A stretch of DNA of 64,000 nt from Isoetes taiwanensis (Eukaryota > Streptophyta > Lycopodiopsida > Isoetales > Isoetaceae), in NCBI GenBank assembly GCA_021234155.1, contig JAJEKV010000025.1:4117773-4181772 (forward strand), written 5' to 3'. This document shows, piece by piece, positions 1-35,913 of the stretch. The position numbers and the translations under genes were made by a program. Position 1 is the first letter of the stretch; each line of letters opens with the position of its first letter. The notes beneath the pieces were generated by a model that worked only from the letters and a program-made list of their open reading frames with translations, searched no databases and had not been told where the DNA came from.

Positions 1-801
1 AGGTTCTTTTGGCAAGCTGCATATGCTAAATCTGTGGAGGGCTTTAATGAAGCTATCCAAAGCATGAGGGCAATCAATAACAGTGTTACAGATTGGATGC
101 TTGCTTCAGCACCCGCACAATATTGGGCAACTGCACACTTTAAAGGAACACGGTTTGGTCACTTGACTTCTAACATTGCAGAGGCCTTAAATTCTTGGCT
201 TCTTGAAGCTAGAGATAAACCTATCATTCCAATGCTAGAAATTATTCGAAGACAGCTAACTGAACGCTTTTACAAGAACCGTGTTGAAGGTGAGGCTTTG
301 TGGGCGTCTTGTGGAGAAGCTGCTACATACACTCTAGTGAAAGATGCTCAACAACATATTACAAAGGTCACTGAACGAGCTAGAAGGTATATAGTATTTC
401 CTTCTGATGCATTTGTGTTTGAAGTACAAAGTCCAGAGCGATCAGTTGTGGTTAACATTGAGTCTAAAACATGTTCGTGTTTGGAGTGGCAAATGTTAGG
501 ATTGCCTTGTGGTCATGCAGTTGCTGCTATTCTTTTTCGACGACAACGTCCAGATCTTTATACCCATCCAGGTTACTTGTTAAGCTCATTTTGCTATTCA
601 TATGCTGGAGCTATTTATCCACCAAATTTTGAACTTGTTGGAAGTAATGAATTACTACCTCCTGCGACCACGTCGTCCTCCCGAAAGGCCTAGAAGGAAG
701 CGGGACGGCCACGAAGGCGAGAGATAGAGAAAAGCGGGTGTACAAGTGCACACGTTGTGGCAATGGCGGCCATAATGAACGCAGTTGCAGAAATCCTATT
801 T
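1..801 (+). pseudogene. MULE (MuDR) transposase, C-terminal part, copy 1
   Basis: This is the C-terminal third of a Mutator-like transposase; the reading frame enters from the left edge of the window (a Phe-Phe-Trp-Gln segment precedes the first Met). The SWIM zinc finger is visible near 469-525 as CSC, eight residues, then CGH. It is followed by a Pro/Arg-rich linker and a CCHC knuckle at 738-797 (C-x2-C-x4-H-x4-C). A one-base frame break near 655-690 creates a stop at 691-693 and separates the two motifs. SWIM and CCHC fingers are standard C-terminal parts of MuDR proteins and bind DNA or RNA. The catalytic D-D-E core is outside the window or deleted. A diverged paralogue lies at 17,805-18,745. 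Confidence 0.9.
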
Positions 802-887
802 GACATTGCATATTTTGTCATAATTTCATGTTGTGAAAATTATTTTGGAGCTCAAGAATATGTGGTATTAAATACTTTCATTCCATC

Positions 888-990
888 TGTAACTTTCATT
901 CCATCTGTAAAAACAATAATCTATTGTGAATTTGGAAAGTTGCATGCATTCCATCTGTAAGAATAATAATCTATTGTGAATTTGGAACGC
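888..990. repeat. short direct repeats in the MULE 3' region
   Basis: A unit beginning with ATTCCATCTGTAA and including AATAATCTATTGTGAATTTG occurs twice in tandem, with a shorter partial unit just upstream. The same arrangement is present in copy 2 near 18,823-18,925. It lies between the transposase stop and the right TIR. Confidence 0.7.
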
Positions 991-1007
991 GTTACCGGCT
1001 TTTTGAT

Positions 1008-1115
1008 AATTTTTAGCATAGAAAGGGCTATTTGGGAAAATAATGAAGGGCTTTTTGGGAAATAAGTCAACAATTAAGGTTATTTTGGTAAATTTCCCAA
1101 AATAATAACAATACT
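1008..1115. repeat. MULE right terminal inverted repeat, copy 1
   Basis: This AT-rich block carries repeated GGG-x-x-ATTTGGGAAA motifs and ends near GGTTATTTTGGT. The reverse complement of 17,371-17,470 has the same motif order, so the two behave as TIR arms. The left arm of copy 1 would lie outside the window. I could not find a 9-bp target duplication. Confidence 0.55.
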
Positions 1116-1584
1116 GATCTAGGAGGAATACCAGGGAAATGTAAAACAGGCCGATCCCCATCTGTTTGAGTTTTACGTATAAGCGGAAGTGGAAACAAAT
1201 TGGCATCCATGGCGTTGGTGTAAGCTTGCGGAAGGAAATTGGAAGTAAGAAATTAGGCATCTATGCCCCCGATTCCGACAAAGGGAAGCCAATCGCAAGC
1301 TAGAAAAGGGTGGGCGACGGCGAGAGGCGGCGAGAATCACAATTCTCGTAAAAAGTTTTAACAGGAGATCGAGAGAGATGAATCCCTTAGCAAAATGCAG
1401 GAAAATAGGAAACTACGAATAATTTATTAGAATCAAAGCAAATTTGAGAGGTCGGATCTGTAAGCCTAGTTGGTTATCTCGACTTAAAATTGGCAAATAA
1501 TCAAGCCCGATGCAAAGCGTGATAGGCGTTAAAAGCGAATCGCGATGCCCGACAACAGAGGCCCGGTGCAAGACTTCCCGGGAA
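1116..1584. other. MULE flank, no gene seen
   Basis: I see no convincing coding sequence or element here. It aligns with 19,027-19,527 and ends at the CTAAG target site of the copia insertion. Confidence 0.6.
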
Positions 1585-1589
1585 CTAAG

Positions 1590-2047
1590 TGTTAGAAATT
1601 TAATCATGCCATGTATTGGAAATATGACCAATCTGGGCACACAAATAAAAAGGACACGTATGGGTGAAGCTTACGGAAAAGACAAGTCCTATCCTAATTA
1701 GAAGAAAAGGGGAATAAAAAGAAACGAAAAAAAAAAAAAAAAAAAGCGGTTGAAGGGCATCGAAGTGTGTGGTTGTGTGATCGAGATAAAAAGCTGGAGG
1801 ATGTTTGCTTGAGGGGGCGATGGTTGCTTGTGTGGGCGAGAGATAGATCGATGGAGCCGATTAGCTAAGGGGATACCGCCGGAGCCGGAAGTGCACGATG
1901 GTGCTAAACTACGGATAGTCGCGGTGACCTTGTTGCGGAGGACTCAAAGTGGTGTTTGCGGTGGACCAAGTGAAGAAGCGCAACGTGTGTGTAGGAGACC
2001 GAGCATTGGATTTGTTGGGTTCAACTCCCAGGACTCGAAAATTAACA
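1590..2047 (+). repeat. Copia-1 5' LTR
   Basis: It starts TGTTAG and ends in CA, and includes a poly(A) run near 1727-1745. It pairs with 5926-6388. Most LTR-LTR differences are CGG versus CAGG or CTGG-type changes. Confidence 0.95.
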
Positions 2048-2048
2048 T

Positions 2049-2064
2049 TGGAATCGAGCCATGG
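2049..2064 (+). other. Copia-1 primer binding site
   Basis: TGGAATCGAGCCATGG begins two bases after the LTR and resembles the initiator-Met tRNA complement used by many plant copia elements (TGGTATCAGAGCC). A closer second match, TGGTATCGAGCCATG, lies at 2410-2424. Confidence 0.6.
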
Positions 2065-2309
2065 TCCCAAGTGGAAGGTGCTTAACCATCGGGATAGTCC
2101 CCATGGTGTAGGGGGTGAGAATGAGCAAAGCTTGGCGGTGGAAAGCCCAACCCCACGGTGGTGGGAGTTGCCCGAGGGGGAGCATGTGGATTGTGGTGAA
2201 GGCTGGAATGGACGGGTGTGCCCATTAAGGGGAATGTTGGAATGTTGGGTATGTGTAATAGGCACACATGAAGAATGACTTCGATGGAAGAGTACCGAAG
2301 CCCATCAAA

Positions 2310-2381
2310 GGGCGGTAGCTCGATGGTAGAGTACTTGGCTTGCAAGCAAGAGGTCCTCAGGTTCGATCCCCAGCCTGTCCA
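2310..2381 (+). pseudogene. tRNA-Ala-like sequence (UGC anticodon) in the Copia-1 leader
   Basis: The segment has an A-box-like TAGCTCGATGG, an anticodon-loop-like CTTGCAA with TGC in anticodon position, and a B-box GGTTCGATCCC at tRNA-like spacing. The anticodon stem has one mismatch, and the T stem and acceptor stem pair poorly. It is therefore a tRNA-derived relic or SINE-type head, not a clear functional tRNA. It sits inside a retrotransposon and is separate from the PBS. Confidence 0.5.
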
Positions 2382-2849
2382 CCCAATCATAGAAGGCTCA
2401 TTTCTCAACATGGTATCGAGCCATGAACCCAAAAATGGAGTTTTCTTGCCAAAATAGTTGAACGTGTGGAGGGGAAAATCCATCCGAGTTAAGGCTGTGA
2501 TTGGAACCGGGCTTCCGTGGATGGGAACCTTTGGGGGTAGTGTTTTGGATTCCTTTATTGAATCCAGGAAGACTCTATTTTGAAAATCGGGCAGGGCATA
2601 ACCATGAGCATGAATCAATTTTACCAACTGTTCCCTTAACTATCGATTCGAAGTAAAAAACCGTGAATTGCCTCGGAAGGATTGATTAAAACATTGAAAG
2701 AACCTGACCACCATTGTGTATGCGAATGGGAAACGGTGATTTGCATAAGGTTAAGGGTTCTGCGGGAAAGCTTGAGTTTTACCATAATGGGGAAGCGTAA
2801 AGGTATGCACGGAGAATGCTCTCTGTATACACCGGTATGTTGTTTAATT
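2382..2849 (+). other. Copia-1 leader and missing gag region
   Basis: About 470 bp separate the tRNA-like relic from the first protease-like reading. No UBN2-type gag or CCHC knuckle is readable. Either gag was deleted or it is too corrupted to recognise. Confidence 0.5.
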
Positions 2850-4041
2850 TGATTTCGATGCTTGAGACTTAGTGGATCTTTGGATACAAAGTAAATTTTG
2901 ATACTCCTCATTGTGAAATAGTTGGGAATGGTAGAAAGATTTATCACGAAAAGAAAAGGAAAGTTATATTGTTTAGATGCTTTTTCCTTCATTTGGCGAT
3001 ATTAGCTTGTCGAATTATGGCATCCGAGGTGTGGTCATGTGAATGATGCAACAATAAAAATAATGAGCAAACATAAATTGGTAGAAGGATTACACGCCAA
3101 CATGGATCTTGGATGAACATAGAATATGTCATGGATGCATGCTAGGGGAAACAGCACTAGACATGCTTTTAAGCCCTCGGTTCTCGAAAACATTAGGGGT
3201 GTTGAATTTGGTGCATTGGTTTGTGTGGTCCGATCTTGGCGTCACGATATGAGTGGCAAGGTGTATTTTATTACTTTTATTGATGATTTTTCTCGGAGGG
3301 CGAGGTGTTATTTCTTGAGATCTAAAAGATCGAGGCATTCCAAACATTTCAGTTGTATTTGGCGAGAAAGCGAGCGTGAAGACCTCAGACGGTTGAAACG
3401 TCGCGTTCGGTCCCCCAAGTATCTGTCAGGTGCTTTTATGCAGTTTTGTCGAGAAAAAGGGATTCGTCGGCAATTTACTTGTAGGCATACTCCACAGCAA
3501 AATGGTATTGCTGAAAGGAAAAATAGAACTTTGATGAATGCAGTAAGATCAATGTTAAAACATGCTGGTTTACCTAATTACCTATGGGCGGAAGCAGTAC
3601 AGGCTGCGTGTTATATTCAGAACAAGTTGCCGTCAGCAGGTATTAGAGGAAGAATTCCGGAAGAAGTATGGTGTGGTAAAAAACAATCTGTAGAAAGGTT
3701 GCGTGCATATGGTTGTCTGGCTTACATGCATGTGCCAAAAGAATTGCGCTCAAAGCTGGATGATAGAAGTGTGGGAAACATATCTTGTTGGTTATGAGGA
3801 TCGGGGATCTGGTGTATGACCCTAAGACCAAAAAGATTCATATAAGCCGGGATGTAGTTTTTGATGAAACCAAGTTTTATAAAGATAGGTTGGTCAAGCA
3901 AGATGTGCCACGGGAGAAAATGAGAAATTTAGAAAATCAGCCTTGGGCTCCAGAAGGTTGGTTTGAAGATGATGAGAAGGAAGATGTTGAGGCTCAAGAG
4001 GATGGTGTTGTGGATGAACTTCGGAAGATGCACGATTAGAA
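2850..4041 (+). pseudogene. Copia-1 protease C-terminus, pre-integrase and integrase
   Basis: The end of the protease domain is readable near 2850-2980. The pre-integrase motif LWHPRCGHV follows near 3010. The integrase core includes the conserved stretch FITFIDDFSRR (3269-3302) and a readable HTPQQNGIAERKNRT (3488-3532) holding the catalytic Glu. The integrase C-terminus continues in a shifted frame from 3785, with DPKTKKIHISRDVVFDE. At least two frame breaks and a damaged region between 3315 and 3420 interrupt it. These proteins excise nothing; they insert the cDNA into the genome. Many breaks are at CHG sites and may be base-calling errors. Confidence 0.9.
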
Positions 4042-4299
4042 GATCAAAATGTGGAAGTAAGCATGGAAGAGCAAGAACAAATAATGGAGCCGGGAGATAT
4101 AAGAGTTGAGGAACCCGGTTGAAGAGCGCATAGAGAGCCAAGAGATGTAGGGGTCGAAAGAGCCGGCTCGCACCTAAGCAGTGATGCGGCAAGATTAAAG
4201 CGAGAAGTGTCTTTTGATACATCAAAATATGGAAGGGATGAACGTGGTAGAAGCACACGCCAACGCTGAACTTCCTGCAAAGTTTAAGGAGTGCAGTTT

Positions 4300-5235
4300 G
4301 GGGCCACCATCGATGTTGTGTCTTTGTAGAGCCAAGGTCATTACAATGAAGCGGTTAAGTCACCGGATGGAGATAAATGGCACAAGGCAATGGAAGAAGA
4401 GTTGAACTCATTTAAATTAATGTGTACCTACGATCTAGTATCCCTCGTCCTAAAGAGAAAAAAATGTAGTAGGATGTAAATGGATTTTTAGATTGAAAAA
4501 AGGGACCTGATGGTGAAGTTGAAAGATACAAGGCGAGGTGCTGGTGGCGAGGGTTTACACGTAAAGAAGGTATAGATTATCATGATACTTTCTGTAATTG
4601 TTAAAGCCCGACCGGTTTGAGAGCTTTAGTAGCCCTTGCAGTTGAACATGATTTAGAACTTGATCATATGGATGTGAAAACAGCGTTTTTGAATGGGGAC
4701 TTGGAGGAGGAGATTTTCATGGAACAGCCAGTTGGGTATGAGGTGCAAGGGAATAAAGTTTGCAAGTTGAAGAAAGCAATATGGCCTCGGACAAAATTTG
4801 CTTTCGACAATGGTAATGCGTATGTATGAATACGTTTTATTATCTCAAGGCTTTGAAAAATTAAGCGAAGGAAATTTATACATAAGGAGAGTTGGAGATA
4901 AATTTTGTGTTATTGCTTTATACGTTGATGACTGTATAATGACTGCAAGTGATAGAAAGTTTCTGGATGAATGTAAAGCTATTCTGAGAACTAGGTTTCA
5001 GATGAGTGATCTGGGATGTTTGAAAAAGTTTTTAGGGATGGAGGTTACCCGGAGTAGGGAAACTGGAACGCTTGTATTGACTCAGAAGCAATATATCAAA
5101 AAGATGCTTGATAAGTTTTTTATGACCCGTGTAAACCAGGTTCCCACACCTTTGGTAGTAAATAATAGGATTTGTGGAAGCATGTGTCCTAGAACCGAGG
5201 AAAGAGAAAAGACAAATGAAAAAGGTACCATCTGA
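4300..5235 (+). pseudogene. Copia-1 reverse transcriptase
   Basis: The fragments carry recognisable copia RT motifs: HMDVKTAFLNGDLEEEIF (motif A, 4665-4720) and YVDD (near 4921-4932). After YVDD comes the typical DLGCLKKFLGMEV stretch. The frame breaks near 4490-4610, where the lead-in to the palm is out of frame, and again near 4790. The enzyme would copy element RNA into DNA. No single open frame covers the domain as sequenced. Confidence 0.92.
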
Positions 5236-5304
5236 GGGAGCTCATAGGGAGTTTGCTTTATGTTGCTAATGCCACCGCACCGGATATAAACTTTTCTTTA
5301 AGCT

Positions 5305-5917
5305 TTGTTGAGTAGGTATTTGAACAATCCGGGATGGGCCTTGCGGTGGTTTAAAAAGCGAGTTCTCGGATATTTGAAGGGGACTATAGATCTAGGAATT
5401 TGTTATACTAAAAAGCAATGGGAACCACGAGATAGCGGGGTTTGCGAGCTATCACGGTTATCTGATCACGGTGGGCTGGAGACTTGGATGAGCGGAAGTC
5501 TACTCTTGGATATCTTTACAAACTTAATCAGGCGGATGATTTCATGGTGTAGCAAGAAACAAAATTGTACAGCAATGTCAAGTCGCAGTCGAGTACATAT
5601 CAGCATCATCGGCTAGTAGAGAAATAATTTGGCTAAGGAGGATGTTACATGAGCTTGGAGAGAAGCAAACAAATCCGACTAAACTTTATTGTGATAATAA
5701 GAGTTGTATAGCCATAGCCAAGAATCCGGTATTACATTCGAGGACAAAGCATATCGATCTTCATTGCCATTTCATTAGAGAGAAGGTAGCCGACGGTGAA
5801 ATTGATTTGCAATACATCTCTACCAATAAACAAGAAGCAGATATTTTGACAAAAGCACTAGGTGAAACCAAACATGCGCAGTTTAGGAAAGCTATTGGCA
5901 TTGGGAATATGGCATGA
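5305..5917 (+). pseudogene. Copia-1 RNase H
   Basis: RNase H-like fragments include LYCDNKSCIAIAKNP (5684-5728), HSRTKHIDLHCHFIRE and a C-terminal EADILTKAL, all typical of the copia RNase H end. The stop lies at 5915-5917, just before the polypurine tract. The N-terminal half (5305-5600) is shifted relative to 5642-5917. Confidence 0.9.
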
Positions 5918-5925
5918 AGGGGGAG
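5914..5925 (+). other. Copia-1 polypurine tract
   Basis: The purine run ATGAAGGGGGAG lies directly before the 3' LTR, where plus-strand DNA synthesis is primed. Confidence 0.75.
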
Positions 5926-6388
5926 TGTTAGAAATTTAATCATGCCATGTATTGGAAATATGACCAATCTGGCACACAAATAAAAGGACACGTATGGTGA
6001 AGCTTCTGGAAAAGACAAGTCCTATCCTAATTAGAAGAAAAAGGGGAATAAAAAGAACAGAAGAAAAAAAAAAAAAGAAAAACGGTTGAAGGGCATCGAG
6101 CTGTGACGGTTGTGTGATCAGATAAAAGCTGGAGGATGTTTGCTTGAGGGGGACGATGGTTGCTTGTGTGGGCAGAGATAGATCTGATGGAGCCGATTAG
6201 CTAAGGGGATACCGCCAGGAGCTGAAGTGCACGATGGTGCTAGACGCTGCAGTAGTGCAGGTGACCTTGTTGCAGGAGGACTCAAAGTGGTGTTTGCAGG
6301 CTGTGACCGAGTGAAGAAGCGCAACGTGTGTGTAGGAGACCGAGCATTGGATTTGTTGGGTTCAACTCCCAGACTCTGAAAATTAACA
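5926..6388 (+). repeat. Copia-1 3' LTR
   Basis: It starts TGTTAG and ends AATTAACA, followed by the CTAAG target duplication. It matches 1590-2047. Confidence 0.95.
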
Positions 6389-6393
6389 CTAAG

Positions 6394-6643
6394 AAGCGCC
6401 CAATCCTCTTCATTTGATACCACTAAACCTTTCCCAAGCAATTCCCCCAGTATGTCCTGTGAAAAGGGACTCATTCCAAAATGCCCAGCTTTCTTAGACA
6501 GAACCTCCGTCGCCATATCCGGATCTTCTAAAGTAAGCCTCGGTGCATGGCCACCATATTTATCAGCATAGAACTTACGATCAGGCAGAATGTGATCCAC
6601 AATATCATGAGTAATTTCACTAAGTCCTCTCTGTGCCTGCATC
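6394..6643 (-). pseudogene. cytochrome P450 (CYP72-clan-like) exon fragment, copy 1
   Basis: The minus-strand translation has the N-terminal substrate-recognition region of CYP72-clan P450s. ITHDIVDHILPD and YADKYGGH are followed by LEDPDMATEVLSKKAGHF, LGKGLVVSNEEDWA and then nothing. P450s are haem mono-oxygenases anchored in the ER. A splice acceptor CCCAG sits just before the exon (minus strand, 6648-6644). Homology ends at the WAL position next to the copia insertion and at the same place in copy 2, so truncation came before the duplication. The haem-binding Cys and I-helix are absent. Confidence 0.75.
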
Positions 6644-6726
6644 CTGGGTCAGCAAAGCAATCCCGCCAGTAAGAGAAACTAGTCAGAAATTCGCAAGTTC
6701 GATAAAGTAGCCAGAGTTTTGCCACG

Positions 6727-7070
6727 CTTAGATTAGAGCGTTGGAGGAGAAAAATTGATCAAGAAGACACCCTGGCATGTTGGACGAAGATTAAAAAGCT
6801 GGGGATGGGCTTCTGCATGGCATGCCGATTGCATAAAGCACCTTTATTTTAGAACCAAAACGCAATGTCACTGCACAAGTCCAAGATCTCGCCAAACACG
6901 GCTACTCTTGGATGATCTATATGAGGGGACTCCAAGCCCCTCGAACAAGCCCTGGATCAAATGAAACTGCGGAGCAAAAGGCATGAAAAACCAAGAACAT
7001 CAACTCACAAATGCATCTTACATTCATTCAATCGACAAGCATCTTAAAACTCAAAACACCAATATGCATT
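6727..7070. other. intron-like stretch between P450 exon fragments
   Basis: I see no clear coding sequence. If the P450 model is right this is intronic. The Pro-rich hinge expected after the membrane anchor is not recognisable here. Confidence 0.4.
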
Positions 7071-7075
7071 CTTAC

Positions 7076-7166
7076 CATGTAGAACACCCTTCTCCTCGAG
7101 GATCACTAAGAAAAACAACCACTTGAAACCAACATGCATGCATAGAGATAAGAATAAAGCTTCCAT
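7076..7166 (-). pseudogene. possible P450 first exon (membrane anchor), copy 1
   Basis: A minus-strand ATG at 7166 opens a hydrophobic N-terminus (MEALFLSL..., then LFFLVILEEKGVLH) ending at a splice donor GTAAG at 7075-7071. The exon is 91 bp in both copies. A signal-anchor of this kind would suit a P450. Its splice phase does not join directly to the 6643 exon, so a middle exon is missing or the assignment is wrong. Confidence 0.35.
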
Positions 7167-7406
7167 TGTACCTGCTGCTATAGGATGCACGCTAAAAGTT
7201 CTCTGGCACCTGCTACAATGCGCCCGCTAACAACCAAGTATGTACTTTTATGGTGAGAATCCAAGAGTAGAATCGTGTAAGGAAGTGGAAGAGTGAGAAG
7301 AAAGACTAAAGGAGGGGGAGGGAAAAGAAGAGGGAAGCAATGGGAATGAAAGAAGTCTTTGCTTTGTGAGAAGAAGCCGATAAGCGGTCTCGAATGTGGA
7401 GTGCAC

Positions 7407-7413
7407 TTATATA
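7407..7413 (-). promoter_or_regulatory. TATA box for the minus-strand P450-like unit, copy 1
   Basis: TATATAA on the minus strand is followed by a CT-rich leader and then the ATG at 7166. The arrangement is conserved in copy 2. Confidence 0.45.
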
Positions 7414-7611
7414 ATGGCTCGTCCACCCTTAGAATCGCGATCCGGGGCTCCCGGATCGATCACGATTAATAATTGATTAGGTTAGCTTGCATAAGTTAAG
7501 GGTAAGGTTGAAGCACAAAAAATTGAGAATTTATGGGGTACTTATGACCAAATTGAACCTACATGGAATTTCACTAACAGCTTTCAAAAACCATGTGATC
7601 GAAGCTAAAAA

Positions 7612-8100
7612 ATAAGATAAGATAAGATAAGAGTTTTTAACGTCCACGAGAACCCTCTTGGGTTATGGGACCAGAACAGAAAAAGGGGGCATGAGCCCTA
7701 ACAAAACTCGGGAGCTATGCCCCCTAACAAGTCTCAAATACCAAGAACAAAACAAGCGGGCACAAGCCCAAGCAGAATGGGGGGGCTATGCCCCATAACA
7801 ATGTAACCAATAAAACGAAAGGGTGAAACCAACCAAACCAAAACCAAACCAAAATGGAGGCGGGAAGCATAGGGCTATACAAAAACTGTCCATGGATCAG
7901 TCGGCCAATAATCTCGGATGATAGCGGCCTCCCTCTGTATCGACCCACTTCGTTCTTGATCAAGCCTACATGGACTTCGGCATAATTCTTCCTTAGATCT
8001 CTGGTATGTCTTCTGGGCGGAGAAGCGGTTCCTTTCAAGTGATTGCCATGTCGGAGGATGTGTAACGGACAAGCCATCTGAAAAGGACTAGCGGTGTCGG
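7612..8100 (-). mobile_element. non-LTR retroelement 3' end with ATAAG-repeat tail, copy 1
   Basis: On the minus strand this block ends in a (CTTAT)n tail (plus-strand 7612-7632). It is preceded by a GGTCCCATAACCC and GTGGACGTTAAAA terminus, which resembles the 3' end of the SINE-like insert at 10,201-10,442. A LINE 3' end shared with a SINE is a plausible reading. No reverse transcriptase is readable, so the class is inferred from the tail only. Confidence 0.45.
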
Positions 8101-9430
8101 GGGCCGTCGGGGTCGTCTTTGCTCCAACTCGGTGTCGCGGAGAGGATGCCCTACTGCTGTATGTGCATTACACGAGTGAAAAACTTGGTCCACCTCAATT
8201 ATAGCGAAGTGTCACTCGCCTCTTCAAGACCTACAATCGTGGGTTCGTATGGAGGTGTGCTACGTGTCTCTACCAGCTCAAAGCGGGATCTTGGGTCGGC
8301 GGGCAAACAATCCTCTGCCCCATGTGTTGTGGAGCCCTAGGTAATCATAGCATCTTCACGGGCATGGCATGTACATGGTCGGTGGTGATGTTATGATGAG
8401 CGGTGAGAAACATTAGATACCTACCACTGTAGTAGTATCTCCAAAAGTTGTACCCAAATTTCTAGGGTAATTGAGCGTATGTCTCGTGAGTGTGACCCGT
8501 GGATTGGACCGTGTAGAGCTTGACCAACAAATACGAGGCATACAATGGATCGAGCAGCGGTTGTCAAGGCTGCAGCTAAGGATGCATTGGGAAGCGGACA
8601 TTGTGCCGTGATTGGGCGGGGCCAAAGGAGGGGGCTGCCTAGAGTAGGAGGGCTCTATCGTGGGGTCATAGGCTTAGCAGATGACACGGGCACCCTAATG
8701 AGGTTCTTTGCCTTGCGGGTGGCTCTCGGCCCATCACGTTTGTCGCTTACGGGTCATTGTGATGTTCTATGAGACAGAACCCAGGCAAGGCAAAACAACG
8801 AAGTTGCAAATAGCTAGGCAGAGGTAGGAAGCGGAGACCAAGGCAAGGAGAATTTAAGAGGGGGCTAGAAATTAGTAGCTGGCCGGAAATCAGTAGCTGG
8901 CCTGAGATATAGGAAATTTCAACCCCTGGTGTGTGAGGGTTGTCTTTGTCATTGTGCCATCTTGGCAAAGAGGTAGGGTTCCCGACTCTAGGGCCTTGGG
9001 CTGGGAAAGGGGACCGGGCCGTCGATCACGAGAGCTAATATTGCCGGCGCCAGTAGGGTCTAGGGATGTGCTATTGAGCACAGCTATACAAGAATAACAC
9101 GCAAGAACCGACCCACTGGAACTCGGAGCTACAAGAGGGCTAGAATCGATCTACTAAAGGAAAAGCATAATGGGCCTGCCTGAAGCCCAACTAACCTAGT
9201 GCAAACCTTGTGGATCAAACCGAAGGCAAAAATCAGGCTGGTGGATTCGGGCCTGCGTTGATGGAGCGGTTCTGCTGTGGCTGGACTGGCTGGACCTTGC
9301 CGAACTGGGTCCCAAGCTTGCCAAAGACCTTGTCGAAGACTGGAGCTGCTGGAAACAGGAGTTGCACTTCTGTTTTTGCTTCAAAGCCTAGCGCCCAAGC
9401 GCCTAGATGCTAAGGCGGCGGTGCCTAGAT
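8101..9430. other. GC-richer unclassified repeat-like block, copy 1
   Basis: It aligns with 21,241-22,570 but with many small differences at CHG and CG sites. No domain is recognisable in either direction. It may be the upstream part of the non-LTR element or an LTR-element remnant. Confidence 0.35.
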
Positions 9431-10185
9431 GCTGAAAAAGCATGTATGAAATGTTATGTGGTCTATTTATATATTGTCATGGCTAAACCTCACAACATCC
9501 ACTTGAATTCATCAATAAACATCACTAACTATAATCATTCTGGAGTTTTGGACCTATAATAGTGGAGTTGATCCAATTTTTTATACTTTAATATGTTAAT
9601 CTGGCTCTTGTACATCATGTTTGAATTCCAAAAATTGCATGGTTACACCCTAGTTACACTATATGAAGTTGATAAGAGTTATGTTCTATGTAGATATAAA
9701 TAGAATGCATCATTTATTACCCACATGGCATTATGGGTGGTTGTTATTGGAGCATTTTAACATATACTTTTGTCCAAATTTCTTTTATAGTAGATTCTTT
9801 TAGTAAATATTGAGGTTAACATGACTTATGAACACTTCAAAAATCATGAAAGTATAACTTCATATAGTTAGTAACTCATGGCCACAAGAATTAAGTCAAA
9901 ACTTATTATAATAAGAAAGAAATAATTCTTGAACTTCAAGCAGCTTGTTTGACCAAAATAGGGCTTGGCGGCTTCCATTGATGTCAGATAATAGCAAGAA
10001 AACATGGGAACATAAAACTCAGTATGTTCTATGATAAAAGGCAAATATCTCCAACTTTAGCAAGGTTTAGGTCAATTTATGCTAGAAATATCGAAGAAGG
10101 CAGTTCTGGACTGCCAAATTTTCCAACGTTTGAACAACCACCACAAGGTATAGGTGTCCCCATTGGTCTTGAAATTTACACATGC
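9431..10185. other. AT-rich sequence without genes, copy 1
   Basis: Nearly identical to 22,575-23,331. The few differences are at CTGG-type sites. I see no gene. Confidence 0.6.
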
Positions 10186-10200
10186 CATTAAGAAATAAGT

Positions 10201-10442
10201 AGAATAGAATAGAATAGTTTTTTTATCGTCCACTGAGACCAATCGGCCTATGGGACCCAGAAGAAGCGCAGCAAACTTATTACTGTCCGGGTTAAAAAAC
10301 CCCCGCCCCGAAGGGTTTTCGAGGGAAAAACCGTGGCAGTAATAAGAATGCTGTCAAACTGTACAGGTATACATCATCATGAAATAAATGTGTATGTACA
10401 TGTCAAGTGCGTGCCCGAGGACATAGCTGATCTCGCATGTCG
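10201..10442 (-). mobile_element. SINE-like insertion, 242 bp, with 15-bp TSD
   Basis: The insert is flanked by CATTAAGAAATAAGT at 10,186-10,200 and 10,443-10,457. Copy 2 has this once, at 23,332-23,346. In minus orientation it ends in a poly-T/A run and a (TTCTA)n tail. Length, tail and long TSD suit a plant SINE. It contains the hairpin at 10,276-10,346. No Pol III A and B boxes are obvious, so its RNA origin is unresolved. Confidence 0.8.
10276..10346 (-). other. structured hairpin inside the SINE-like insert
   Basis: The outer arms CTTATTACTG and CAGTAATAAG pair perfectly over 10 bp. Inner G/C arms follow, capped on the minus strand by CCC-TTCG-GGG. The same architecture with different arm sequences occurs at 36,043-36,123. 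Confidence 0.7.
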
Positions 10443-10457
10443 CATTAAGAAATAAGT

Positions 10458-12520: not shown

Positions 12521-12988
12521 TGTTAGCAGTTAGCGGCAGTTGAGTGGTAGCACTATCTGCCTGTCGACCCATCCCCGGCGTGTCCAAGAACACGATATTA
12601 GAGATACTTGGTCTCTTTAATGCATTTGTCCAATGCATATATATTAGTCTATTGTAACCTTTTTGTACTTCATTCAATACAAAACCCAACTATATATTCC
12701 CACCATATCTTGTTGCGCGCTCTATATATTCATATAGTATCGGGGCGTCGGGTATGGCGCACAAGAGTAAAAACCAATGCCGTGAGAGAGATAAAGTGCA
12801 AGCTTGCTACACTTGGAGTGAACGAGAGAATTCAAAAGCTGCGTCGTTCCTATATTCGGCGACCCAAATTCCATCGTTATTGTTGCCAAGGGAGAAGACC
12901 AAGCATTTTTTAGCGCCTCTCCTTTCCTTGAAGCCAGATATTTGCCTTTATTTGGTATTTATTTTATTCTTACTAAGATGGTTGGGCC
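12521..12988 (+). mobile_element. Copia-2 5' LTR and gag leader, truncated at the duplication end
   Basis: TGTTAGCAGTTAGC starts the LTR (12,521-12,732). It ends TTCA before a PBS-like TAGTATC segment. Identity with copy 2 stops at 12,988, nine bases into the gag start. Confidence 0.8.
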
Positions 12989-19026: not shown

Positions 19027-19527
19027 AAATTTCCCAAAATAATAACAATACAGATCTAGGAGGAATACCAGGGAAATGTAAAACAGGCCGATCCCCATCT
19101 GTTTGAGTTTCTGTATAAGCGGAAGCGTGGAAGCAAATTGGCATCCATGGCGTTGGTGTAAGCTTGCGCGGAAGGAAATTGGAAGTAAGAAATTCGGCAT
19201 CTATGCCCCCTGATTCCGACAAGGGAAGCCAATCTGCAAGCTAGAAAAAGGCTGGGCGACGAAGCAGAGGGCAGCAGAATACGAATTCTCGTAAAGTTTT
19301 AACAGGAGATCGAGAGAGATGAATCCCTTAGCAAAATGCAGGAAAATAGGAAACTACCAGAATAATTTATTAGAATCAAAGCAAATTTGAGAGGTCGGAT
19401 CTGTAAGCCTAGTTGGTTATCTCGACTTCGTGGCAAATAATCAAGCCGATGCAAGCGTGATAGGCGTACAAAGCGAAGCCTGAATGCGGTACTGACAACA
19501 GAGGCCCAGTGCAAGACTTCCCCGGAA
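19027..19527. other. MULE flank, copy 2, no gene seen
   Basis: Counterpart of 1116-1584. Confidence 0.6.
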
Positions 19528-19532
19528 CTAAG
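19528..19532. other. empty target site of Copia-1
   Basis: A single CTAAG joins the sequences that flank Copia-1 in copy 1. This gives the pre-insertion allele. Confidence 0.95.
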
Positions 19533-19782
19533 AAGCGCCCAATCCTCTTCATTTGATACCACTAAACCTTTCCCAAGCAATTCCCCCAGTATGTCCTGTG
19601 AAAAGGGACTCATTCCAAAATGCCCAGCTTTCTTAGACAGAACCTCCGTCGCCATATCCGGATCTTCTAAAGTAAGCCTCGGTGCATGGCCACCATATTT
19701 ATCAGCATAGAACTTACGATCAGGCAGAATGTGATCCACAATATCATGAGTAATTTCACTAAGTCCTCTCTGTGCCTGCATC
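19533..19782 (-). pseudogene. cytochrome P450 (CYP72-clan-like) exon fragment, copy 2
   Basis: It is identical in translation to the copy-1 exon at 6394-6643: ITHDIVDHILPD through NEEDWA, with the CCCAG acceptor before it. Homology ends at the same residue, where sequence near the MULE begins. That makes the P450 a pre-duplication truncation. The identical coding exon contrasts with the noisy flanks. Confidence 0.75.
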
Positions 19783-20210
19783 CTGGGTCAGCAAAGCAAT
19801 CCCGCCAGTAAGAGAAACTAGTCAGAAATTCGCAAGTTCGATAAAGTAGCCAGAGTTTTGCCACGCTTAGATTAGAGCGTTGGAGGAGAAAAATTGATCA
19901 AGAAGACACCCTGGCATGTTGGACGAAGATTAAAAGCTGGGATGGGCTTCTGCATGGCATGCCGATTGCATAAAGCACCTTTATTTTAGAACCAAAACGC
20001 AATGTCACTGCACAAGTCCAAGATCTCGCCAAACACGGCTACTCTTGGATGATCTATATATGAGGGGACTCCAAGCCCCTCACAAAACCTGATCAAATGA
20101 AACTGCGGAGCAAAAGGCATGAAAACCAAGAACATCAACTCACAAATGCATCTTACATTCATTCAATCGACAAGCATCTTAAAACTCAAAACACCAATAT
20201 GCATTCTTAC

Positions 20211-20301
20211 CATGTAGAACACCCTTCTCCTCGAGGATCACTAAGAAAAACAACCGCGAAACCAACATGCATGCATAGAGAGATAAGAATAAAGCTTCCA
20301 T
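20211..20301 (-). pseudogene. possible P450 first exon (membrane anchor), copy 2
   Basis: The 91-bp counterpart of 7076-7166, with ATG at 20,301 and donor GTAAG at 20,210. Two compensating small indels change the middle residues but keep the length. Confidence 0.35.
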
Positions 20302-20539
20302 TGTACCTGCTGCTATAGGATGCCTGCTAAAAAGTTCTCTGGCACCTGCTACAATGCGCCCGCTAACAACCAAGTATGTACTTTTATGGTGAGAATCCAA
20401 GAGTAGAATCGTGTAAGGAAGTGGAAGAGTGAGAAGAAAGACTAAAGGAGGGGCAGGGAAAAGAAGAGGGAAGCAATGGGAATGAAAGAAGTGCTGCTGT
20501 GAGAAGACGCCGATAACTGGTCTCGAATGTGGAGTGCAC

Positions 20540-20546
20540 TTATATA
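20540..20546 (-). promoter_or_regulatory. TATA box, copy 2
   Basis: TATATAA on the minus strand, same position relative to the P450-like first exon as in copy 1. Confidence 0.45.
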
Positions 20547-20743
20547 ATGGCTCGTCCCTGCCTAGAATCGCGATCCGAGGGCTCGGATCGATGCGATTAT
20601 TAATTGATTAGGTTAGCTTGCATAAGTTAAGGGTAAGGTTGAAGCACAAAAAATTGAGAATTTATGGGGTACTTATGACCAAATTGAACCTACATGGAAT
20701 TTCACTAACAGCTTTCAAAAACCATGTGATCGAAGCTAAAAAA

Positions 20744-21240
20744 TAAGATAAGATAAGATAAGAGTTTTTAACGTCCACGAGAACCCTCTTGGGTTATGGG
20801 ACCAGAACAGAAAAAGGGGGCATGAGCCCTAACAAAACTCGGGAGCTATGCCCCCTAACAAGTCTCAAATACCAAGAACAAAACAAGCGGGCACAAGCCC
20901 AAGCAGAATGGGGGGGCTATGCCCCATAACAATGTAACCAATAAAACGAAAGGGTGAAACCAACCAAACCAAAACCAAACCAAAATGGAGAGGGGAAGCA
21001 TAGGGCTATACAAAACTGTCCATGGATCGATTGCCTACCAATAATCTCGGATGATAGCCCCTCCCCTCAGATCTGCCCCTTCCAGATTGCGGTCAAGCCT
21101 CGCGGACTCGGCATAATTCTTCCTTCCGTCTACAGAGCTGTATGTCTTCCTGGACAGAGAAGGCGGTTCCTTTCAAGTGATTGCCATGTCGGAGGATGTG
21201 TGTCTGGACAAGCCATCCCGAAAGGGACTAGCGGTGTCGA
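20744..21240 (-). mobile_element. non-LTR retroelement 3' end with ATAAG-repeat tail, copy 2
   Basis: Counterpart of 7612-8100. The tail and terminal block are identical to copy 1; the GC-rich upstream part differs at CHG sites. Confidence 0.45.
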
Positions 21241-22570
21241 GGGGCTACGGTCGGGGTCGTCTTGCTCCAACTCGGTGTGGGAGAGGATGCCCTGCACAGT
21301 ATGTGCATTACACCGAGTGAAAAAACGGTCCACCTCAATTATAGCGAGAAGTGTCACTCGCCTCTTCAAGACCTACAATGCGGGGGTTCGTATGAGGAGG
21401 TGTGCTCAGGTCTCTACCAGCTCAGGCGGGATCTTCTACCGGCAACAAACAATCTCTGTCGGGCGGCCGGAGGGCCTAGGTAATGTAGCATCTTCCTCGG
21501 GGCATGGCATGTACATGGTCGTGGTGGTCGATGTTATGATAGACAAAGTGAAACATTAACATGGCCCTGCGCCGACCAATAGTATCTCCAAAAAGTTGTA
21601 CCCCGACTTTCTAAGGGTAATTGAGCAGATGTCTCGTGGAGTGTGGCGGTGGAGATTGGACCGTGTAGAGCTTGACCAACGATTGGAGGAATACAATGGA
21701 TCCGGAGCGCAGCTTCCGTCCAAGGCTGCAGCTAAGGATGCATTGGGGGCGGATTTTGCTGCAGTTGGACCTTTGGGGCCAAAGGAGGGGGGTGCCTAGA
21801 GGTAGGGCTCTATCGTGGGGTCATAGGGCTTAGCGCATGACACGGGCACCTTAATGAGGTTCTTTGCCAAGGGTCGCTCTCGGCCATACGCGAATCGCGA
21901 CGGGTCATTGTGATGTTCTATGAGACAGGAACTGGGCAAGGGCAAAGCAACGAGTTGCAAATAGCTAGACAGAGGTAGGAGCAGACCAAGGCAAGGAGAA
22001 TTTAAGAGGGGGCTAGAAATTAGTAGCTGGCCGGAAATCGATGCTCGGCACGAGATATAGGAAATTTCAACCCCTGGTGTGTGAGGGTTGTGCTGTCATT
22101 GTGCCAATACTGGCAAAGAGGTAGGGTCGTTCCTGACTCTAGGGCCCTTGGCCAGGAAAGGGGCTTGGGCGTCGATCACGAGGAGCTAATATTGCCAGGC
22201 CAAATTAGGTCTAGGGATGTGCTATTGGTGACGCTATACAAGAATAACACGCAAGAACCGACCCACCGGAACTTCGAGCTACAAGGGGGCTAGAATCGAT
22301 CTACTAAAGGAAAAGCATAATGGGCCTGCTGGCCCAACCAACCTAGTGCAAAACTTGTGGATCAAACCGAAGGCAAAAATCAGTGGGGTGGATTCCCGCT
22401 GCGTTGATGGAAGCCTGGAGCTGCCGTATCGGATTTGGCCGGACCTTGCCGAACCGGGTCCCAAGCTTGCCAAAGACCTTGTCGAAGATCGGGCTACTTT
22501 GGAAACAGGGAGTTGCACTTCTTTTTTGCTTCAAAGCCTAGCCTAAAGCGCCCTAGATGCTAAAATGGTG
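21241..22570. other. unclassified repeat-like block, copy 2
   Basis: Counterpart of 8101-9430. No domain recognised. Confidence 0.35.
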
Positions 22571-25420
22571 CCTAGATCTTTGAAAAAGCATGTATGAAAT
22601 GTTATGTGGTCTATTTATATATTGTCATGGCTAAACCTCACAACATCCACTTGAATTCATCAATAAACATCACTAACTATAATCATTACGAGGTTTGGAC
22701 CTATAATAGTGGAGTTGATCCAATTTTTATACTTTAATATGTTAATCTGGCTCTTGTACATCATGTTTGAATTCCAAAAATTGCATGGTTACACCCTAGT
22801 TACACTATATGAAGTTGATAAGAGTTATGTTCTATGTAGATATAAATAGAATGCATCATTTATTACCCACATGGCATTATGGGTGGTTGTTATTGGAGCA
22901 TTTTAACATATACTTTTGTCCAAATTTCTTTTATAGTAGATTCTTTTAGTAAATATTGAGGTTAACATGACTTATGAACACTTCAAAAAATCATGAAAGT
23001 ATAACTCGTATAGTTAGTAACTCATGGCCACAAGAATTAAGTCAAAACTTATTATAATAAGAAAGAAATAATTCTTGAACTTCAAGCAGCTTGTTTGACC
23101 AAAATAGGGCTTGGCGGCTTCCATTGATGTCAGATAATAGCAAGAAAACATGGGAACATAAAACTCAGTATGTTCTATGATAAAAGGCAAATATCTCCAA
23201 CTTTAGCAAGGTTTAGGTCAATTTATGCTAGAAATATCGAAGAAGGCAGTTCTGGACTGCCAGATTTTCCAACGTTTGAACAACCACCACAAGGTATAGG
23301 TGTCCCCATTGGTCTTGAAATTTACACATGCCATTAAGAAATAAGTGGAGACTCAAACGATAGTGGTATATTATAAAATTGAAATTTCTTTCGTGACTTA
23401 CATGGGTTTAAGTGGCAGAGGTCAGGAATGGTCCCAGGGACAGGTCTAGTGTTAAACTTACCTATTAATCTAGAATTCTAACCAGCTACTTCCTAAGGAC
23501 TATGAAGAGAAACCTCTATTTTAGAGCACTACTAATTCTATGCTACCCTGCTAAATTTCAAATTTGGCTGGACAAATGCGATTAGACTCCATAGAATTTA
23601 ATGGAAAAATGCTCATGTAGAAATCTGGCCATCAAGAAATTTGGGAGATTGATCGGTGCTACGCGTCTGAATGATTTTATTCCCATAATTTACAAATGCC
23701 AAGAAGAGCAGATTTGAAGCGAGATTAAGTTTTGAAAGTGGGAAATGCCACAACACAAATGAATAATGCAATAGAAACCCTTAATGCCCTGGTTCTTAGG
23801 TTCACATGCTACAATACAATGTCAACCGTCCATTTCAATGATGCTACTAGCTAGTAACGTCGTACTGGCCCATATTTTATAGGCACATACTCATAATAGC
23901 ATAGAAATACGAGTAGTCTCATAACACCCTAGAATATTACCATCTCCACTTTGTTCATTTTCTTTGCTCATGCCTCCGTCGCCATAGCCGTCTTCTATCT
24001 TTCCTAATGCTTTCAAGAAGGTAGTGCTTGCAAATCTGGGAGTAGGTTTGAGTTCCACGACACCCGAGATTTAGTTTGAGCCATTTTTCGCTCCATTCAA
24101 ACGGATTTTTGTCTTTTTAAGTCTTGGTTTTGCCTGATTTTTTTGGCTATTCAGATTTTCCGTCATTAGCTTCTAATGGAGATGAAGAGGGTCGAATAGG
24201 GTATTAACGGTGCGGGAAGTGAGATGCTTATTTTTTGGTTCTTCCTTGTGCGAGCCATGTCTCATTATCATGTTGCCCGATACCATGATTCAATATAGTT
24301 GTTCTTCACGAAAAAGCCTTTTCTTTACTCTTTCTTTTTGTTCTTATTTAGCTTGCTCTTTTTCTTTCCTATGTCAAGGGGGGCTCAAAAGTGCGTAGCA
24401 ACAAAGAAGCGTCTTGAAAGCGGGGGTTCAATTCCCACCTCCTCGATCATGAAACCATGGTTCCATGCCTTGCTCCTTCTCCTCTTTTCCGACTGTATCC
24501 ATCCTCAAGTATTCCATTCCGACCTCTCTCTCTTATGCAAACCGGAGCATTAAGGGTGATAATGCTCTGGCCCTCAAAGCTTGAGCCAAAACTTTTTTGG
24601 GTCGTGTGGCCATGGCCAAAATGGCTCGGGCATGTGTTGCATGCACACACTCGCCATTCTGGCCATGGCCACATGGCCCTCAAATTTTTTTTTCCAAGTA
24701 ACGCCCTTGTTTGCACACCAACATATTTCTGTCTTAAAAGACTTTGCGAATATGAGAAAGGAGACCCTAATATGGAGGGAAGCCCTAAGGACTTCGCGAT
24801 TATCCTTCTGGCCTTTCGGTATCTCCTGGAGATGGTGCAAGGTTGTGCACCTTCTCCTCAAGAACACTATTAGTGTTGCATTACAATGATGCTTAAACCT
24901 TCATCTGAGGCTATTATTCGCATCAGGTTTAAATCTTTTTCCTGCTCCTTGTTTCTGCTATATGATGATCAATTACTGCGACAATATGAATGTATATGAT
25001 TCTCAATTTATGGATTATGATGGTTTTATAAGTTGGATTCTTTCTTTGAAATGATAAGAACTATGCACGAATGATCTATTCTTTTGATTACCAATTTAAG
25101 TCTCTGATGAGTATCAACTATGTTAAGTTGTTTTGTTGACTGATGATGAAAGAGCTTGATTTCAAACACTTGGAATGAGTTTTTCAGTGATAAATCACGC
25201 TGCATTCTTTCTATATTCTTTGAGAATTACTCTCTTGTGATGATCAGACAGTACTTTCGTTCTATTGGAGCAACCTTGATTGCTATGTAGAACCAAATTG
25301 GAGACTTCTTTTGTAGATATGGATTTCTATCTTCTCGTAAATTTTAACGCTTTGCTTTTTTTTTTTTTTTTTTGACATTTCGATCTGCACCACATTGACT
25401 TGACCTGTTCATTACTGTTT
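22571..25420. other. AT-rich sequence of copy 2, no full gene
   Basis: Counterpart of 9431-12,520 without the SINE-like insert. It includes the conserved C-terminal reading near 24,800-24,885 and a poly(T) tract at 25,356-25,373. The part at about 24,780-25,420 recurs inverted at 45,890-46,575. Confidence 0.5.
23332..23346. other. empty site of the SINE-like insertion
   Basis: The 15-bp target sequence occurs once here and twice around the insert in copy 1. Confidence 0.95.
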
Positions 25421-25634
25421 TGTTAGCAGTTAGCGGCAGTTGAGTGGTAGCACTATCTGCCTGTCAGCCCATCCCTGCTGACGTGTCCAAGAGACACGAT
25501 ATTAGGAGTAACGGGTCTCTTTAATGCATTTGTCCAATGCATATATATTAGTCTATTGTAACCTTTTTGTACTTCATTCAATACAAAACCCAACTACATA
25601 TTCCCACCATATCTTGTTGCGCACTCTATATTCA
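25421..25634 (+). repeat. Copia-2 5' LTR
   Basis: 214 bp, TGTTAG to TTCA. The left edge is defined by loss of similarity with the third copy. The counterpart is 12,521-12,732. Confidence 0.75.
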
Positions 25635-25878
25635 TATAGTATCAGACGTCGGGTATGGCGCACAAGAGTAAAGCCCAATGCCGTGAGAGAGATAAAGTGC
25701 AAGCTTGCTACACTTGGAGTGAACGAGAGAATTCAAAAGCTGCGTCGTTCCTATATTCGGCGACCCAAATTCCATCGTTATTGTTGCCAAGGGAGAAGAC
25801 CAAGCATTTTTTAGCGCCTCTCCTTTCCTTGAAGCCAGATATTTGCCTTTATTTGGTATTTATTTTATTCTTACTAAG

Positions 25879-28800
25879 ATGGTTGGGCCTTCGTCTCATG
25901 GGTTAGAGAAATTCCTTTTAAAGTTTCTAGAAGAATTTACTTGCCATAATTTTCATACCTGGTCCACAAAATTACAATTGATGCTAATGAGAGAGGCTAC
26001 CTACAGAGTAGTAGATGGGACAGAAAAATCTGTTGAGGCTGCCAAAATTTCTGAGTGGGAGCAAAGGTATCATAAGGCCCTCACCACCATTGGCTTAGCC
26101 CTTGCAGAGGAGTATGTGCATTTGATAGACCTTACCAGATCTGCACATCATAATTGGAGCACTTTGCTAACAACATTTGGAGGCTCCGGTAAGGCATGCG
26201 AGTTGTCTCTTAAGCAACAATTATTTGCCTAAAGATGGAGTCCAGTGAAGCCATTGCTGAATATTTAAGCCGCATGAGATTCCTTATTGTGCAATTGGCT
26301 CGGGTCAATGCCGTTGTTTCTAAGGAGGACCAGATGGCGATATTACTTAAAGGCCTCGCATCATTATAAACATGTTGTCATCACGTTGACGAACATTCCC
26401 AATCAAACTATGGATTTTGCTGCCCTTATGGAAGAAGAGAGAAAGATGAAGATCTATGATCGAGGTAATTCTAAAAATGATGCATTCTTTATGTGCAGAA
26501 GAAGACCTATTGTTGGCAAGAAACCAGTTCGAATTAATGCTGCCCGTAGGAGTCAAGGGCAAGATGGTGGTATGCATTATAATTCTAGACGCCCCTCTCG
26601 AAATGGAAGAGGAGAGTGTTTCGTTGTGGGAAACTTGGGCAAATTTCCACAGATTGTCGTGTGGGACAGCCAAATGATCAGAGTAAACCATCTTCTTCTT
26701 CTTATATGAAAAATGAATCTCGAACTGGTAATAAACTATTTATGGCATCAACTTTTGAAAACCATCCTCAAAATCGAGTTACATGGCTAGACTCAAATGC
26801 CTCTATGCACATGATGCCATTATTATTATTTTTTTTGAAGTCAAAATATTTAAATTTTATTAATGAGTAAAATAGGGTACGTGACCTTATTTGGGCTCCA
26901 CAATAGGCCAAATATGCAACATCTAAACACTGGTCACCAAATAGAAAGAAGTCCGCCCAACATTCCAAAATCGGAGTCTACAAACTGATATAGACCTTCC
27001 CTACCTGAACAAAGATTAAGGTCAATGTGTAATCTGCAGCTGCGACCATTTGAAGCTCACCACCATAAAATACAAGCAATTGAAAGAGCATTGGAGGCAA
27101 CTATCATTCCGCGCATTTACTTGGCTAGAATCCATCCTGCAGCATCGTACTACAGAAGATTATGTCCCTGTTCCATATATGTACTAGGGGACTCAATGCT
27201 CCATCTTCCAACAATGCAGAAGATCATGCTGGCCTGCCCACTAGGGGTGGTTCAATTGCTAACCAAAAGGTCTTCCTATTACTAGCATAGGCCACAACTG
27301 AAAGATGCTCAACTTCCTCATTGATCCGGAATTAAGCTCCCCTTGGACACTTGAATCACAGCTCAATAAGTTAGCAGCGGTAAAGAATACTTGGTCTCCC
27401 GCCCAAGGCTCCTTAATCAGACCCCTTTCATTACCCAAGGAAAGTTCAGTACCATGTCCGTCCATAGAATCTGATTTCCCCTTGCTGGGAAAGGGGGAGG
27501 ATGATATTGAAGTAGCCAAGACTAAAGATACATCTCAAGACGCCACAACAGAACAGCAAAATGATCAAAGATGCATCCAAACATCTGCATTCCGTAGACT
27601 TGCTCCCACACCCACAAGATCTGCAGCTCCTAAAGGGAAGGACAGCCCATTTCGTGCAAACAACAGTCGCACCATTACCTATAGTGTTGCCTTATCACGA
27701 ACTCCTCCAAGTTGAATATAGTCCAAGTTTGTCAATATCTTTTTCTGACTCAAAACCATAACAAAGACTTGCAACATATCAGCTGCATCCAACCCCAAGA
27801 CTGCAGTGAGTGCAGTCAGAACCACAACAGACGTGGCCTTCCTGTTGCAGTGAGTGCAACAAAAGAGGATCAATATACACACTGATAAAACAAGCTTAAA
27901 TAGTGCTTCTGAGCCAATAGCAGTAGCTGATAATAGAATGAGACAGAAGGCAAATTTTGAGCATACAAATGGAGCTCAAAGACGCCCAGAGTCTTAAAGC
28001 ACAAGCTGCCTGCTATCTTTAGCCTATTGAAATCGAAATCCAGAGAATAGCCACAAGGACACAGTCTTACCAGTCAAAAATCTTATGCTATGAAGATAAA
28101 GCACTAAGAGCATCGGCCCAACCCTAGCACTGGACTTCTAGAGCAGAAGATTCGAGGATGACTAGCAGGCCAATCTTGCAACTATAGCCAAACCCGAGGC
28201 CAACGGCAGCAGCAGATCATGCTGCTCTTCCAGCTACGAAACCCTGCCTCTGGAGTCTGCATGCACCGGGCGGCCGCCGCCGCCGCCGCCCTAAACAGCG
28301 CCCAAAACCCTAGCCATCAATCCAATGCCAACCACATGATGCCATTAAGATCATACTTATGAATCTCTTAATAACCAGCAACAAGTTTATGCAAATTTGC
28401 ACCACCTTCACCTTGTGGAACCTGTCAAAACCACGTGCATTAACGGGAGGGGGCGGTTTTTTACCCTTTTCCATATGTAAGTTAGGGGTCATAGGGGGTT
28501 TTGGATGTTCTTCTAGTTATAAAATCAAAGGAAAAGGGTCAAATTTGCCTAAGAAACACGTATACTGGGGGTTTTTCAGCTACCCTATACAGGCAGGTGG
28601 CATATCCCATATAAAGAAGGTGGATCCCCGGGGAGTTTATGTGGGAGATAGCTGGTCTTATCAAGTATGTGGGAGAGGAACTATCTTAGTTCAACTTGGT
28701 GAGACCCCTAAAGAGATTCAAAATGTGTTCCATGTTCCCGGCTTAACCCAGACACTTCTCTCTCTGAGTAAGATTACTGATGCAGGTTCTTATGTCATCT

Positions 28801-35817: not shown

Positions 35818-35913
35818 TCGCGTGGCACGCGTGACCAGCCCCTCGCTTTTTTCGAGGTGTAAATGTTGTTTTTTGTCGCGTGGCACGCATGACCAGCCCC
35901 TCGCTTTTCGAGG
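35818..35913. repeat. 57-bp tandem repeat
   Basis: GTCGCGTGGCACGC and TGACCAGCCCCTCGC occur twice with a 57-bp period. Confidence 0.8.

Follow-up and report, generated by a model that had tools for sequence, protein, structure and literature searches.

Clean and altered copies side by side: probable consensus miscalls at methylated CG and CHG cytosines in repeats of the Isoetes taiwanensis assembly

We analyzed a stretch of 64,000 nucleotides from the genome assembly of Isoetes taiwanensis (the window; C1029:4117773-4181772 in an assembly of 1,658,258,908 bases and 1110 contigs), whose bases 1-25889 are part of a tandem array with an unusual pattern of differences between its copies. The array has three units rather than two; copies 1 and 2 are preceded by copy 0, which is located upstream of the window at -18217 to -4994. 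Each unit is about 13.2 kb long, of which 5 kb are spacer and 8 kb are a body whose open frame contains a SWIM motif. Like the earlier note on this DNA, we take the body to be MULE-like; Pfam matching gave no transposase domain in the region of its SWIM frame. Copia-1, which has integrase-region Pfam matches in 3123-3794, is private to copy 1, and copy 2 has the empty site at 19524-19537. An insert of about 240 bp is present in copies 1 and, judged from spacing, 0. The parts of the array in the window, with its long terminal repeats (LTRs) and two of the differences between copies quoted in the earlier note, are as follows.

1-1588, plus strand: first part of the copy 1 body, aligning with 17937-19532, with an open frame at 1-690 (SWIM, PF04434, E=2.7e-9)
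514-532, plus strand: clean form CATGCAGTTGCTG after the SWIM motif, altered to CATCACGATTCTT at 18450-18470 (copy 1-copy 2 alignment)
1585-6393, plus strand: Copia-1 insertion, with the target duplication CTAAG at 1585-1589 and 6389-6393
1590-2047, plus strand: 5' LTR of Copia-1, the altered ("dirty") one, with 11 CAG/CTG-loss events against 0 in the 3' LTR
5926-6388, plus strand: 3' LTR of Copia-1, the clean one in the LTR-LTR comparison
6389-12988, plus strand: second part of the copy 1 body, with the highest density of differences at about 7880-9400
9534-9551, plus strand: CTGG versus ACGAG, partner 22682-22698 (copy 1-copy 2 alignment)
10204-10442, unstranded: insert of about 240 bp with an 18-bp near-duplicate on its flanks, missing from copy 2
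12978-17936, plus strand: repeat-unit spacer, found before copies 0 and 1 as well
17937-25889, plus strand: copy 2 body, without Copia-1 and without the 240-bp insert

Within Copia-1, a tRNA-like match (RF00005, 33 bits, E=0.0048) is located in the internal region at 2310-2381 on the plus strand.

The earlier note held that the copies differ mainly at CAG, CTG and CGG sites, by compound changes, and that long AT-rich stretches are identical; our counts bear out both statements, and both quoted examples were found as described. Between copies 1 and 2 and between the two Copia-1 LTRs, 877 of 8567 aligned columns differ, in 244 events. CAG or CTG lies within 4 bases of 116 of these events in at least one allele (about 59 under random placement) and is present in exactly one allele in 83 (random, about 31). 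The trimers touched most often are CCG/CGG (135/249), CGC/GCG (117/227), CAG/CTG (159/325), ACG/CGT (80/224) and CGA/TCG (114/326), and the touched fraction of the remaining 27 of the 32 trimer classes runs from 0.26 down to 0.06. Long AT-rich runs are the same in both copies (e.g., the alignment row 9629-9778), with stretches of hundreds of bases free of any difference. When only positions beyond 5 bases from any CG or CHG site are counted, copy 1-copy 2 substitutions fall from 7.69% to 0.57% in B2, from 6.59% to 0.56% in B1 and from 5.50% to 1.83% in B3, and those between the Copia-1 LTRs fall from 11.9% to 3.0% (5/166); as such masking strips true decay too, the masked rates are lower bounds. 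A piece of the array, some 640 bases in length, recurs in inverted orientation at 45885-46511 (array counterparts 11897-12523 and 24806-25423) and is there 78% identical to copy 1 and 84% identical to copy 2, the lower value being as expected if copy 1 has more errors there.

Copy 0 allowed us to polarize these differences. Among 348 three-copy events, 80 have no two-against-one split, and the odd copy is copy 2 in 131, copy 1 in 110 and copy 0 in 27. The odd copy switches in blocks, copy 2 being the odd one over the initial 250 columns of B1 and copy 1 over columns 1250-1500. Trimers on which two copies agree and which are altered in the third include 152/470 CAG/CTG, 58/238 CGC/GCG and 45/249 CCG/CGG, against a background of 0.051 for all trimers and 0.011 for ATA/TAT in the same comparison. 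Counted per cytosine, the altered fraction is 0.306 in CAG, 0.321 in CTG, 0.156 in CG and 0.144 in CCG, compared with 0.037 in CHH; within 100-column bins, the odds ratios relative to CHH cytosines are 12.8 for CAG/CTG, 3.8 for CG and 3.1 for CCG. The count by context that the earlier note had called for is thus strongly uneven, and the differences concentrate in contexts that carry 5-methylcytosine (5mC), as expected of nanopore errors at 5mC motifs.

The published recipe is consistent with such errors. The version 1 genome of I. taiwanensis was assembled from Oxford Nanopore Technologies (ONT) R9.4.1 reads of native DNA, basecalled with Guppy 3.1 flip-flop, by means of miniasm, racon and pilon, with gap filling by LR_Gapcloser in two rounds with pilon between them and with haplotig purging (PMC8566536); the word "methylation" is absent from the main text of that paper. 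There is a bacterial precedent: Dcm 5mC motifs accounted for about 70% of the consensus errors in Klebsiella pneumoniae with then-current ONT basecallers, the motif having been lacking from the basecaller training data (Wick et al. 2019, PMC6591954). As we propose for the present case, the errors at Dcm sites (CC[A/T]GG) were consensus-level errors at a 5mC motif in native DNA; that case, however, concerns one methylated motif in a bacterium, whereas here all CHG and CG sites of a plant would be involved, with methylation inferred, and the pattern shows up, in a genome polished with short reads, as a contrast between clean and dirty repeat copies. In plants, generic basecallers gave lower ONT read accuracy, for which methylation was named as a likely cause (Ferguson et al. 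2022, PMC9749173), the same cause that we propose here, although "CHG," "systematic" and "transpos" do not occur in the main text of that paper. Among titles and abstract openings, our literature search found no report of CHG miscalls left by polishing in plant repeats.

The same contexts could in principle be misread by the nanopore in any methylation state, the errors being visible only in unpolished copies. The affected motifs are, after all, sequence motifs whose methylation is presumed. On the other hand, CG and CHG are the two symmetric methylation contexts of plants, CHH cytosines are spared, and the published ONT consensus errors were tied to 5mC motifs (PMC6591954). Histone H3 genes provide a weak control. 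All 15 top hits have intact frames, in a score-ranked list that would hide broken copies, and the near-identical genes L019 and L020, which contain 40 CAG/CTG sites, are free of compound CHG changes wherever they are homologous; being picked by score, however, they may simply be polished. We consider motif-dependent error without methylation improbable.

A second alternative is real mutation, in which deamination of 5mC in CG and CHG makes the copies diverge at these very sites. As a control for ordinary decay, we used a dispersed repeat of the same genome, represented by 20 of 37 loci that lie outside the array and come from the best 40 of 1496 candidates, and counted the columns with a letter common to 14 of the 20 loci. 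This repeat is also enriched for changes at CG and CHG (CCG, 18/60; CAG, 43/240; overall, 0.089). Since real 5mC decay strikes CG and CHG as well, context counting alone is insufficient as proof of miscalls. The earlier note had argued that ordinary divergence would not cluster in this way; the clustering itself stands, but it does not by itself decide the cause. It is the products of change, not their context, that settle between error and decay. The dispersed repeat has 341 transitions, 122 transversions and 50 gap columns (of 513), and 325 of its 403 events are single-column and 78 multi-column, whereas in the array transitions number 441, transversions 376 and gap columns 411 (of 1228), with 255 multi-column events out of 486. 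Changed CAG became CAA or TAG in 30 of 43 cases in the dispersed repeat and in only 14 of 152 in the array (p=7e-15). Conversely, it became CGG (30 cases) or C-G (8 cases) in 38 of 152 cases in the array, compared with 2 of 43 in the dispersed repeat (p=0.002). Changes at CHG in the array are thus not mostly C to T or G to A, as deamination predicts, but include stereotyped products of other kinds, as nanopore errors at 5mC motifs do. The 14 array changes of the CAA/TAG type would fit deamination, but most of the array CAG changes are CGG, C-G or compound, and gaps are many.

LTR pairs speak to the same question, as the two LTRs of one element begin identical, so altered sites shared among insertions beside a clean partner indicate recurrence rather than descent. 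We cut out six further loci of the Copia-1 family (L004 to L009). Seven of their LTRs (L004a, L004b, L005b, L006b, L007a, L008a and L009a) are clean and nearly identical, even though they come from elements on six contigs; L005b and L004a, which belong to separate elements, were compared over 573 positions with 0 substitutions, and between L006b and L004a there are 8. In contrast, L005a differs from its own partner LTR by 34 substitutions and 18 gap columns, and altered CHG sites are common to L005a, L006a and L007b, which are independent insertions. In the L006 and L007 pairs, masking leaves no substitutions; in the L005 pair, it lowers them from 6.0% to 3.5% (7/199), the residual likely stemming from a purine run. 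Eight pairs have three or more losses and could be aligned well enough for use (C941 is excluded); summed over them, 70 CAG/CTG losses are in one LTR and 4 in its partner. Divergence with age, which would place changes on both LTRs and at sites not shared with other insertions, is not what these pairs display, and altered sites common to independent LTRs beside an unaltered partner do not agree with deamination. Taken with the products of change, this makes real mutation a very unlikely source of most of the differences.

We extended the comparison to 11 further Copia loci from near the top of a score-ranked RVT_2 list (best 150 of 13951 candidates), a choice that favors intact elements. They yielded eight LTR pairs (L057, L059 and L060 had none), and the signature is present in two, namely, L063 and, by one compound event, L062. 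In the L063 family, partners were sought for 14 unpaired LTRs and found for 8, which with 9 ready pairs gave 17 pairs, or 16 after C941 (3' LTR truncated, poor alignment) was dropped; C1032:3259221 and the wide pairs on C1028, C1045 and C1025 are not among them. Three of the 16 carry the signature (C1104 and C739 in the 5' LTR, C27 in the 3' LTR), and single events are seen in C1075 (5'), C985 (3') and C1026b (3'). The signature-free pairs (6 of 8 and 13 of 16, respectively) either differ little or have diverged in other ways. The first six dirty pairs (the window, L005, L006, L007, L062 and L063) are all dirty in the 5' LTR. Under one fixed rule applied to 30 pairs, including C941, more losses lie in the 5' LTR in 9 pairs and in the 3' LTR in 4 (7 versus 2 with at least three losses), and a 5' LTR bias is not established.

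Similar marks are found in two 5S ribosomal DNA arrays (C13 and C907; 27 kb; L050, L051 and L052), where 61 of 72 BLAST pieces have at least 90 of 119 bases aligned. Of these units, 8 are perfect and 53 imperfect, and the same changes recur among the latter: A40, in the CAG at positions 39-41, is lost or changed in 37 of 53 and A77, beside a CTG, in 44 of 53. The change that recurs most strongly is the insertion of an A behind position 53, in GTTAAGCG, with 45 inserted A over the 53 units; the site precedes a CG by four bases. Positions 79-93 have zero substitutions or deletions in the imperfect units, and the CCGG and CGG sites at positions 6-8 and 28-31 are rarely altered.

Together, these results lead us to consider it very probable that the differences between copies are mostly consensus miscalls at methylated CG and CHG cytosines, left behind by short-read polishing in some of the near-identical copies. 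The earlier note's proposal of basecalling error at methylated CHG and CG sites thereby gains support from context, products, recurrence, 5S marks and the published recipe (nanopore R9.4.1, Guppy 3.1). According to this explanation, the copies would be nearly identical in the plant itself, and native DNA, 5-methylated at CG and CHG cytosines and most of all at those of CAG and CTG, would have been read on R9.4.1 pores with a basecalling model untrained on such DNA, giving miscalls at those cytosines. The long-read consensus may then have kept stereotyped errors (CAG to CGG or C-G, GCTG to CTTTG, and compound replacements). Short-read polishing would have cleared them from unique sequence and, among near-identical copies, from the one that drew the reads, leaving the errors in the other copies and hence clean and dirty patches side by side. 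Errors in some copies only fit polishing that reached one of several near-identical copies.

Several observations weigh against this explanation. The artefact is patchy rather than universal, being seen in only 2 of 8 Copia pairs and 3 of 16 L063-family pairs. Near-identical pairs that are clean on both sides exist (L053, L058, C556, C1081, C1043 and C908), and uneven polishing alone therefore does not foretell which pairs are dirty. Many CHG sites of the array are unaltered and the same in all copies. Copies 1 and 2, for instance, have no difference over 6389-6688, in a block that has 17 CAG/CTG and 14 CG within its first 500 columns. Some differences lie away from CG and CHG, as the residual after masking in B3 and in the L005 pair indicates. 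The observed/expected ratio of CAG/CTG is 0.44-0.85 in five stretches from 3 to 25889, compared with 0.96-1.11 in four stretches from 26000 onward, and this depletion of CWG (CAG/CTG) in the array could at least partly come from true decay. Finally, a homogenized 5S pseudogene family could mimic part of the 5S pattern.

Two features of the assembly procedure itself were also considered. The assembler might have falsely duplicated haplotypes or repeats to give the array, and the differences would then be allelic; only one copy contains Copia-1, and haplotig purging was part of the published pipeline (PMC8566536). However, there are three copies, the 240-bp insert unites copies 0 and 1 whereas only copy 1 has Copia-1, and a false duplication would leave the products, the LTR-pair marks and the 5S marks unexplained, so that we regard it as a remote explanation, although it could hold in addition. 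Raw R9.4.1 reads would carry errors everywhere, yet AT-rich stretches of hundreds of bases are identical, and gap filling with raw long reads, which would have placed unpolished sequence in some copies, is therefore the least plausible source of the differences even though LR_Gapcloser was used (PMC8566536).

Other features of the window and genome are recorded here in their own right. Outside the array, 35264-37591 holds a diverged cluster of direct repeats, one pair of which (36780-37045 and 37248-37513) is 266 bases long with 93% identity. An open frame at 60376-61119 on the minus strand matches DDE_1 (PF03184, E=1.4e-11) and, below the cutoff, a Tc5-type DNA-binding domain. On C908, the minus strand of L064:4598-6055 has a Histone H3-like domain (PF00125, E=3.2e-42) at residues 372-481, ending a 485-amino-acid open frame; the 470-amino-acid frame that follows has no Pfam match. 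Similar H3-like domains occur in open frames of up to 494 amino acids on many contigs, including L029 on C1018 (best 150 of 8705 candidates), and are perhaps carried by a repeat family; a literature search found nothing on a histone domain within a repeat family. A second rbcL-like frame, 512 amino acids open, is located on an 11.4-Mb contig (L010, C1052:5414403-5418329) and is 89.5% identical over 1454 bases to rbcL on C840 (L011), which reads as a land-plant gene and looks like that of a lycophyte; the second frame would be an old plastid insertion or foreign DNA.

The errors bear on how these repeats are read. The earlier note held that many frame breaks in the repeats are technical, and this is borne out in part: copies 0 and 1 have an intact SWIM motif, whereas that of copy 2 is disrupted at the CAG/CTG sites that the note had named, and the longest open frame of the region measures 191 codons in copy 0, 290 in copy 1 and 118 in copy 2. 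We accordingly consider the frame breaks partly technical. The asymmetry between clean and dirty copies, together with the CAG-to-CGG product, offers a read-free test for the artefact that is usable on any plant assembly. It is a long shot that the leftover errors serve as an accidental record of methylation, the density of dirty CHG sites marking CHG-methylated repeat copies; the further suggestion that 5' LTRs in this lycophyte are more CHG-methylated than the 3' LTRs of the same elements is weak, given the LTR counts above (9 versus 4 of 30 pairs, or 7 versus 2). If LTR insertions are dated, repeat-divergence landscapes drawn, pseudogenes called or 5S variants counted from this assembly, the results would be biased, and other early nanopore plant assemblies probably share the bias. 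Young elements affected in this way would appear several percent diverged and frame-broken, and the affected repeats give an impression of greater age and damage than they probably have in the plant.

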